Below, piece after piece: positions 7,578 through 35,015 of a stretch of DNA of 35,932 nucleotides. Source of the stretch: Acidobacteriales bacterium 13_1_40CM_3_55_5 (GTDB lineage Bacteria > Acidobacteriota > Terriglobia > Terriglobales > Acidobacteriaceae). The stretch's first letter is position 1; each line of letters opens with the position of its first letter. A model generated the notes under the pieces. That model was not told the DNA's origin. It searched no databases and saw only the letters and a list, made by a program, of their open reading frames with translations. The stretch covers positions 1 through 35,932 of the forward strand of contig MNGW01000101.1 in NCBI GenBank assembly GCA_001918935.1, written 5' to 3'. The position numbers were made by a program, and so were the translations under genes.

Positions 7578-7587
7578 CTGAGGTTTT

Positions 7588-7621
7588 CTTCCTCTGTGCG
7601 CCCCTGTGTCCTCTGTGGTTC
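7588..7621. repeat. CCTCTGTG-family repeat between convergent stop codons
   Basis: This contains CCTCTGTGCGCCCCTGTG and then CCTCTGTGGTT. It is the same family as the repeats at 9383-9418, 9892-9927, 20741-20777 and 34919-34940. On the minus strand it begins 6 nt after the fadE stop. Confidence 0.75.
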
Positions 7622-7627
7622 AAGCTT

Positions 7628-9367: not shown

Positions 9368-9382
9368 TTCAAAACCCCTTTT

Positions 9383-9927
9383 TTAACCACGGAGGCCACG
9401 GAGGAACACAGAGGAATTATTTCATTTGCCCCAATTTTTGCCATTTACCATTCGTTGGATGCCATTACGAAGGTGTGTGACATGGAAGTTGATGAGAAGA
9501 CCTACGTTCTTGCCGCTCAACTTCAAGTACGACAAAAGCTGCGCCTGGTGAATGGGATGAAAGCCCTCAGTACACTTCAATTCGACGATGACCGACTCCC
9601 CAACCATCAAATCGAGACGGTAACCGAGGTCGATGGTAGTTCCATCGTAAACGACCGGCAACACAACTTGATTCCGAACCTCCAACCCTTGCTTTCGCAA
9701 CTCATGGACCAAACAGGCCTCATAAGCGCTCTCCAACAGCCCTGGACCTAGAAGCGAATGAACTTTCATGGCAGCGGTGATGATAACGCCGGTAAGGAGA
9801 TTGACGCGCGGGGTAGGAGCTAATAATCTCGGACTAGCCATGGCGATTCGCGGATTTGTTTCCGCTGATTGCACCCTAGCACAAAAAACAAAATTCCTCT
9901 GTGATCCTCCGTGTCCTCTGTGGTTAA
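9383..9927. mobile_element. 545-bp cassette: GxxExxY gene between 36-bp inverted repeats
   Basis: The left repeat 9383-9418 and the right repeat 9892-9927 are 36-nt reverse complements differing at three positions. Each is made of CACAGAGGA/CACGGAGGA units bounded by TTAACCAC and GAGGAATT. The only gene between them is the GxxExxY protein, whose stop lies 3 nt inside the left repeat. The cassette sits between fadA and fadE. No target-site duplication is obvious. Mobility is an inference from the terminal inverted repeats and the dispersed repeat family. Confidence 0.6.
9422..9841 (-). CDS. GxxExxY protein (PD-(D/E)XK nuclease-like)
   Basis: A 139-residue protein with the family signature GLLESAYEACLVHEL (G-x-x-E-x-x-Y) and a nuclease-like core: LGYRLDLMVGESVIVELKC supplies the Asp and the ExK, followed by QAQLLSYLKLSGKNVGLLIN. 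GxxExxY proteins (TIGR04256) are widespread and uncharacterised, and the fold is predicted to belong to the PD-(D/E)XK superfamily. ATG 9841 (MASPRLLAPTPRVN) was chosen. The frame is open up to 9979, but that extension is merely translated repeat (HRGHGG). It lies inside the inverted-repeat cassette between fadA and fadE, in the same orientation as both. DNA cleavage or repeat recognition is possible but unproven. Confidence 0.88.
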   Translation of the reverse strand: MASPRLLAPTPRVNLLTGVIITAAMKVHSLLGPGLLESAYEACLVHELRKQGLEVRNQVVLPVVYDGTTIDLGYRLDLMVGESVIVELKCTEGFHPIHQAQLLSYLKLSGKNVGLLINFHVTHLRNGIQRMVNGKNWGK

Positions 9928-9932
9928 AGATT

Positions 9933-20740: not shown

Positions 20741-20777
20741 TTTCCTCCGTGTACCCCTGTGTCCTCTGTGGTTAACG
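20741..20777. repeat. CCTCTGTG-family repeat
   Basis: CCTCCGTGTACCCCTGTG is followed by CCTCTGTGGTTAACG. It is a single copy in the divergent interval between the cyclase and the RodZ-like gene, where promoters for both should lie. Confidence 0.75.
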
Positions 20778-32900: not shown

Positions 32901-33427
32901 GGCAATTAGCAGTCAGCATTCAGCACTCAGCATTCAGCACTCAGCATTCAGCACTCAGCATTCAGCACTCAGCATTCAGCACTCAGCATTCAGCACAAAA
33001 ACATCAGCGCTCATCCTGCTCGACGATCTGCTTCGACTTTACGGACTAAGGATGCAAGCATCCGCTTAATTTCGACCACTGCCAAGTTCAGCTGGGTGTA
33101 ATCCAAATCACTTAGGAAACCAAGATCGTGCGCTAGCAGAAAGTGATATTCCAGTTCGCTGGCGGATCCGCTAGCAATGTTCAGGAAGCGCTGAAACCCA
33201 GGATTTCCTCTTTTGCCACAGCCCTCAGCAATGTTCGCGGCAACTGAGGCAGCACATCTACGAATTTGGTTTGCCAATCCATACATTTCTTCCCGAGGAA
33301 ATGTAGATGTCGCTGCATATGCTGCGAGAGTCAGGCGATGCGCTTTTTGCCACACTTGTAAATCTCTAAAATCTTTCATGGGAAGCCACCTTCTTGTCTT
33401 GGCTGAATGCTGACTGCTGAATGCTGG
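32901..33427. mobile_element. 527-bp cassette: four-helix-bundle gene between inverted heptad arrays
   Basis: The left array 32901-32996 contains six perfect copies of the 14-mer TCAGCATTCAGCAC (32913-32996). The right arm 33401-33427 is the same heptad family in inverted orientation. The only gene between them is the four-helix-bundle protein (33011-33379). The layout parallels the GxxExxY cassette at 9383-9927 in size and plan. The left array begins 4 nt after the pmbA stop. Mobility is inferred. Confidence 0.55.
33011..33379 (-). CDS. four-helix bundle protein (S23 / 23S rRNA intervening-sequence family)
   Basis: A 122-residue helical protein: MKDFRDLQVWQKAHRLTLAA, then FPREEMYGLANQIRRCAASV, AANIAEGCGKRGNPGFQRFL and ASGSASELEYHFLLAHDLGF, the standard signature of the TIGR02436 / S23 family. 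Relatives are encoded inside 23S rRNA intervening sequences and, as Avd, in diversity-generating retroelements, where they bind nucleic acid. The role of free-standing copies is unknown. The start is ATG 33379 with AAGGTGG upstream; the longer open frame to 33658 runs through repeat DNA and the PilZ gene. It lies inside inverted heptad arrays, opposite in orientation to pmbA and the PilZ gene. Confidence 0.92.
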   Translation of the reverse strand: MKDFRDLQVWQKAHRLTLAAYAATSTFPREEMYGLANQIRRCAASVAANIAEGCGKRGNPGFQRFLNIASGSASELEYHFLLAHDLGFLSDLDYTQLNLAVVEIKRMLASLVRKVEADRRAG

Positions 33428-34816: not shown

Positions 34817-35015
34817 CTGAGCAGTCAGCATTCAGCACTCAGCACTCAGCTCAGCAAACTCAGCAAACCGCGATGCTACCTTGAGTCCTGTTTATACTCC
34901 CGCAGTTTTCGGAAATCCTTAATCACAGAGGACGCAGAGGCTCGCAGCGAACCAGCACCCAGCCATTATCTAAGGAATTGGCTGAGTGCTGAATGCTGAG
35001 TGCTGACTGCTGCTG
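34817..35015. repeat. inverted heptad arrays, 'empty', between the LuxR-type gene and tRNA-Ser
   Basis: The left arm 34817-34865 (GCAGTCAGCATTCAGCACTC and further units) and the right arm 34980-35015 pair over about 29 bp with two mismatches. The roughly 115-nt loop has no ORF but contains a CACAGAGG-family repeat at 34919-34940. The left arm starts 3 nt after the LuxR-type gene's stop. I see nothing else in the gap up to the tRNA at 35124. Confidence 0.8.
34919..34940. repeat. CACAGAGG-family repeat inside an empty heptad hairpin
   Basis: TTAATCACAGAGGACGCAGA-GG is a short form of the 36-bp repeat that bounds the GxxExxY cassette. It is nested in the loop of the heptad inverted repeat. Confidence 0.65.

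Follow-up and report, generated by a model that had tools for sequence, protein, structure and literature searches.

We found that the GxxExxY gene, which encodes a protein of the PD-(D/E)XK nuclease family, lies between inverted arrays of short tandem units, hereafter arms, that also occur dispersed in the genome without the gene. The stretch of DNA analyzed here (the window) comprises 35,932 nucleotides of contig MNGW01000101.1 from Acidobacteriales bacterium 13_1_40CM_3_55_5. As a description, gene and arms very likely constitute one element accompanied by derivatives. The explanation that we favor and consider probable is an autonomous repeat-nuclease element with MITE- or REPIN-like derivatives, in which the nuclease recognizes the units and spreads the element. 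A small repeat-nuclease element had been proposed in an initial annotation of the window, and this proposal is supported by strong inverted repeats at 99 of 135 loci, by arms that are tied to the gene and by the existence of empty sites.

The inverted repeat of the window copy measures 37 nt with 34 identical positions and is stretched by the repeat tool to 47 nt at 85% complementarity (Table 1). Each arm is built of three CACRGAG units with TTTAAC ahead of the array. The initial annotation, which had described 36-bp repeats with 33 identical positions around the gene and lone repeats near 7588, 20741 and 34919, was essentially right about the former, and arms were located at all three of the latter places. 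The core unit pattern matches five times in the window compared to 0.35 expected matches. Both arms enclose the GxxExxY gene, the only one detected in this genome of 2.87 Mb (74% complete), and the neighbors are a fadE-like and a fadA-like gene. Ribosomal RNA families gave no match between 7000 and 11500; the copy sits between protein genes and not in rRNA, and a 23S rRNA intervening sequence element was therefore rejected.

Table 1 Features of the window; positions are counted from its first nucleotide.
Feature	Position	Strand	Description
Left arm	9382..9418	+	TTTAAC, then units CACGGAG / CACGGAG / CACAGAG (as read: TTTAACCACGGAGG-CCACGGAGG-AACACAGAGG); starts spaced 9 and 10
Right arm	9892..9928	-	Inverted copy; units CACAGAG / CACGGAG / CACAGAG (as read: TTTAACCACAGAGG-ACACGGAGG-ATCACAGAGG); spacing 9, 10 as in left arm
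GxxExxY gene	9422..9841	-	PD-(D/E)XK nuclease family, complete, 139 aa from ATG
Solo arm	7586..7622 (about)	-	Unit type and spacing of the window copy; 3' end of fadE-like gene
Solo arm	20742..20776	-	Unit type of the window copy; intergenic
Degraded solo arm	34919..34950	+	
S23 gene	33035-33355	-	Inverted CAGCAYT arrays at 32914-32994 and about 33400-33425
Gene-less CAGCAYT array	7140-7164		
Gene-less CAGCAYT inverted pair	34826-34850 / 34981-35005		

In profile searches, the window protein matched TIGR04256 (GxxExxY; 143 bits, cut-off 35, E 4.5e-42) and PF13366 (PDDEXK_3; 139 bits, cut-off 22, E 1.5e-40), which confirms its earlier description as PD-(D/E)XK-like. Among 141 proteins of the family, the Glu and Tyr of GxxExxY and the Asp, Glu and Lys of the PD-(D/E)XK site are invariant or nearly so, and the QxxxY motif is present. 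The window protein keeps the full PD-(D/E)XK/QxxxY active site, and its nuclease activity is predicted. Its AlphaFold2 model is confident (pLDDT 93). Of the solved structures, the Cas4 protein SSO0001 (Foldseek E 3.5e-4), LHK-Exo and lambda exonuclease match it best, with modest TM-scores of 0.4-0.5 that place the likeness to Cas4 and lambda exonuclease at the superfamily level. The model has a processing-nuclease fold without sign of a strand-transfer domain. A sequence search of the PDB returned designed repeat proteins only, which we judged to be spurious. We additionally recovered one Prevotella relative in a contig scan with a single protein query; in the phage records that were searched, no GxxExxY gene was found.

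In order to describe how general this layout is, we searched 350 bp on either side of 135 GxxExxY loci of the phylum. The gene occurs in 30 of 61 relatives; across the phylum, 111 of 297 nearly complete genomes have it, with up to 14 copies each. A strong inverted repeat (score of at least 15) flanks 99 of the 135 loci, compared to none of 192 mock genes placed in neighboring DNA. When an arm was defined as three consecutive C-R-C-N-R-A-K units spaced 8-10 nt, at least one arm was identified at 111 loci and both arms at 89, while 270 shuffled flanks contained none. The initial annotation had named a lack of repeats at most GxxExxY genes as a sign of chance association; the counts show the opposite, and chance repeats were rejected on the basis of the shuffles, the mock genes and the reversed pattern. 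The density of arms is 3.4 per kb up to a distance of 300 bp from the gene and drops 14-fold, to 0.25 per kb, beyond 500 bp; those near the gene are mostly oriented inward. About a fifth of the GxxExxY loci have no detectable arm, which we count against the favored explanation. Outside the phylum, arm-flanked elements were found in Bacteroides finegoldii (in the order radA, element, next gene), in Sphingomonas (between fabD and fabG), in Gemmatirosa and in a Prevotella MAG, in which each arm consists of about six ACGGATT-type units; in three further named records the arms are weak or missing. Two loci, L081 (genome G057) and L036 (Prevotella), have more than three units per arm and inverted repeats of 58-60 bp, above the usual length.

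The repeat that the initial annotation had regarded as one 36-bp sequence is real and tied to the gene, but it is not a fixed sequence. It is one representative of a class of tandem-unit arms, the type of which is matched to the protein lineage. The unit is nearly uniform over all six positions of one locus and varies between loci, with CACAGAG, CACGGAG, CGCCGAG, CGCAAAG, CACGGAT, CGCGAAT and others being observed; the five paralogs of genome G051 have five different unit types. Within a locus, left and right arm agree at unit positions 2, 5 and 7 with frequencies of 0.89, 0.96 and 0.98, respectively, compared to 0.51, 0.65 and 0.63 for swapped pairs with arms from different loci, and their spacing is identical at 83 of 89 loci. 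On the protein tree, which was built on 123 columns and has many weak forks, position 7 (G or T) requires 2 changes, and random labels require 19 on average; the corresponding values are 8 and 17.6 for position 5, 19 and 27.9 for position 2, and 32 and 53.9 for the spacing. With the labels shuffled exclusively between paralogs that share a genome, none of 300 trials reached the observed value, for each of positions 7, 5 and 2 and for the spacing. This concordance could partly reflect passive linkage and shared descent of gene and arms. The joint change of six separate units, however, is beyond what linkage of gene and arms accounts for.

Arms are also widespread away from the gene. A strict GAG-type pattern, the counts of which include the gene's own arms and miss the GAT and AAG types, identified 2,212 arms in 89 of the 297 genomes, with a maximum of 240 in one genome; the same pattern in reverse had almost no matches. 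The gene is present in 57 of the 60 genomes with at least five arms, compared to 54 of the 237 with fewer (Fisher p = 4e-26, uncorrected for kinship). The positions of the repeats are thus related to the gene; the lack of such a relation had been named in the initial annotation as a second sign of chance association. Many gene-less arms form inverted pairs 30-120 nt apart that are able to fold into strong hairpins (folding z = -8.2). For 48 of 68 cases, the unit letter and spacing of dispersed arms correspond to those of a gene that the genome itself carries, compared to 16 expected (5 of 2000 permutations). In G163, for example, the main hairpin family carries the rare CACCGAG four times, spaced 8, 9 and about 10, as do the arms of its gene at L058. 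The dispersed arms of G297, G220 and G068 are unlike the sampled genes and count against the favored explanation. Three genomes (G265, G304 and G271; L175-L204) contain 14-38 arms and only short gene-less elements, with no GxxExxY gene detected, perhaps as a result of gene loss or assembly collapse; they, too, count against the favored explanation. Many of these arms lie at contig ends, which suggests that recent, nearly identical copies were lost in assembly. In the genomes with arms and no gene, a 5.6-kb stretch between arms was searched and contained no related nuclease. The solo repeats of the window are part of this dispersed family of hairpin and one-arm derivatives.

The comparison of orthologous sites revealed occupied, empty and decayed states. 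Between fadE and fadA, four relatives are empty, with a junction of only 18-33 bp, which supports the earlier view that the cassette was inserted here. Five genomes carry a GxxExxY element at this site, with three different unit types among them, two have the arm pair alone and others have decayed arms. Empty sites, as sought in the initial annotation, were also found between sufD and sufS in one genus, where seven species have a full-size element (429-464 bp) and five are empty (0-45 bp). Here, G375 has retained the two arms together with the first codons of the gene, and in G349 the gene's end is left; G157, G213 and G374 show arm pairs, and G285, G360 and G321 one-arm remnants. The remnants of the gene start in G375 and of the gene end in G349 indicate that the direction was from full to deleted in at least two cases. 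Four loci from other species of this genus (L278, L282, L283 and L284) hold a small unrelated gene of about 60 aa, ribbon-helix-helix-like by eye, in the same gap, which thus takes different inserts.

At these two sites, the elements are placed directly after the stop codon, with which the arm end (TTAACC or TGACC) can overlap. Both flanking genes are co-oriented with the element gene at 39 of 89 armed loci, according to a rough ORF method. Among the elements scanned, a target-site duplication of at least 10 bp was absent except at L039, and one shorter than 10 bp would be missed. At this locus (G149:C12), the start of a hydantoinase-like gene is present in two diverged 95-bp copies, one on either side of the element; no other flank duplication was found. 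In the five sufD-sufS species in which a full-length frame was read, which excludes G354 and G363, synonymous sites are saturated, which shows that the copies are old, at a non-synonymous divergence of 0.17-0.23. A hand count in the six copies that retain two arms gave 2 deviations among the 216 unit positions outside position 4. This low divergence of amino acids and units shows that gene and arms are both maintained, with the arms decaying where the gene is lost. The element was seemingly inherited vertically in the seven species, so that movement must be rare, which we likewise count against the favored explanation.

According to the favored explanation, one gene for a Cas4/lambda-exonuclease-like PD-(D/E)XK nuclease would make up a minimal autonomous selfish or mobile element, the ends of which would be the inverted arms, each with three (sometimes four) tandem 7-nt units separated by linkers of 1-3 nt. 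Probably acting as an oligomer, the nuclease would recognize its own unit type in DNA, process arms that are extruded as a hairpin or cruciform or are single-stranded, and spread its own element as well as, in trans, gene-less arm pairs in the form of MITE/REPIN-like hairpins. These pairs would then decay to single arms. From the data described above we infer unit recognition by the nuclease, nuclease-driven movement, its route and present-day mobility. Because no target duplication was found, insertion of the full element coupled to repair, or its homing into arm-only sites, is just as likely as transposition of the classical kind, and constitutes the chief rival. To our knowledge, PD-(D/E)XK nucleases alone do not join strands, and host repair or a partner would therefore be needed, which is a further point against the favored explanation.

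Three other explanations were weighed. The nuclease might cut or resect gene-less arm pairs. A full copy, homologous in its arms, would serve as the template for their repair, which would place the gene between the arms; the arms would spread by other means, such as slippage or host enzymes, and the gene would parasitize them. The occurrence of hairpin-only and full states at one site in related species, the missing target-site duplication, a fold closest to the end-processing nucleases Cas4 and lambda exonuclease, and the concerted change of units, which fits gene conversion, are all consistent with such homing by recombination. We nevertheless consider it rather unlikely, since the gene-less copies with a gene start (G375) or a gene end (G349) point to loss from full copies and not to gain, and since different unit types persist among the paralogs within one genome, so that conversion between types must be rare.

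That the arms are transcriptional or RNA devices, such as hairpins within operons or terminators by which the small mRNA would be insulated or processed, with the gene as cargo of unrelated function, is highly improbable. Elements do often lie in operons directly after a stop codon (sufD, radA, fadA), and the arm pairs fold strongly (z = -8.2). However, mismatches between arms show no bias toward sense-strand G-U wobble (72 versus 64), which favors a role at the DNA level, a stem needs no triple direct units of lineage-specific sequence, the orientation relative to the neighbors is mixed, and gene-less solo arms are plentiful. Domestication by the host has been proposed for REP repeats, and nuclease and dispersed arms might likewise be a host-selected system for chromosome maintenance or recombination control. 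The patchy presence of the gene (111 of 297 genomes), the empty sites and the decayed remnants make this very unlikely, even though vertical retention and strong amino-acid constraint at sufD-sufS and the up to 240 dispersed arms would fit.

A second gene family in the same genomes shows a comparable arrangement. At 24 of 28 loci, genes of the S23/four-helix-bundle type (TIGR02436) are accompanied by inverted short-unit arrays, each locus with its own unit, mostly of 7 nt. The protein is unrelated to GxxExxY, the unit consensus is another one, and the period is mostly 7 and not 8-10. These data suggest that this orphan family works on the same plan. Cyanobacterial STRR heptanucleotide repeats resemble such short-unit arrays. 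The window itself contains one S23 gene as well as gene-less CAGCAYT arrays; where these form an inverted pair, the degraded solo arm of the GxxExxY type (34919) lies within the loop.

A more far-reaching proposal, which we put forward tentatively and rate somewhat below an even chance, is that of a new class of selfish DNA. It would be mobilized by a Cas4/lambda-exonuclease-type nuclease that reads tandem words, with an own word for each lineage (positions 2, 5 and 7 and the spacing), and the array would serve both as the element ends and as the substrate of gene-less hairpins, an architecture that would have been invented or shared by S23/four-helix-bundle genes. If true, this would account for a large part of those bacterial tandem interspersed repeats of 7-10 nt that are so far unexplained. 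GxxExxY genes, which are annotated in many phyla without a known role, gain an anatomy and a candidate substrate, and a candidate source can be named for a large family of dispersed repeats, which numbers up to 240 copies in a genome. The correspondence between protein and unit provides a testable code, namely which residues set the unit letters and the spacing. Provided that the nuclease drives movement, mobile DNA would have a route open to it that dispenses with a classical transposase.

In the literature searched, outside of which most subscription journals and preprints lie, we found no published account of these repeats together with a GxxExxY gene, which is no proof of novelty. The window protein is a clear member of TIGR04256/PF13366, a family annotated merely as part of the nuclease superfamily. 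With Cas4/lambda-exonuclease nucleases it has the fold and the QxxxY-type active site in common; however, it has only about two-thirds of their length, its invariant columns lack a conserved cysteine, and at the loci seen the gene is encoded alone between arms and not with CRISPR or recombinase genes. In one paper, GxxExxY is reported at a place where others see cas4. Terminal inverted repeats, internally deleted non-autonomous derivatives and presence or absence at orthologous sites are shared with MITEs and insertion sequences. The element is nevertheless outside the usual IS and MITE families: it lacks a transposase of the DDE, serine, tyrosine or HUH type, a target-site duplication was not found in the elements scanned, and its ends are tandem arrays with lineage-specific spacing.

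The closest parallel is the REPIN-RAYT system, in which inverted repeat copies flank a nuclease gene, hairpin doublets and singlets of the repeat are scattered over the genome as well, and the repeat type is linked to the local enzyme (PMC3116915). The GxxExxY element is likewise accompanied by dispersed singlets and inverted doublets of its repeat. The REPIN-RAYT enzyme, however, is an HUH/Y1 tyrosine transposase, whereas the sole gene between the GxxExxY arms encodes a PD-(D/E)XK protein. The REPIN-RAYT repeat is one palindrome with a GTAG/CGTC-type tag, while a GxxExxY arm consists of three direct tandem CRCNRAK units, and the GTAG tag is absent from the pooled end composition of the GxxExxY elements. 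Furthermore, the GxxExxY arms lie immediately on both sides of the gene and form the ends of the element, unlike in REPIN-RAYT. Overall, judged by analogy, the GxxExxY element appears to work like the REPIN-RAYT system without being a member of it.
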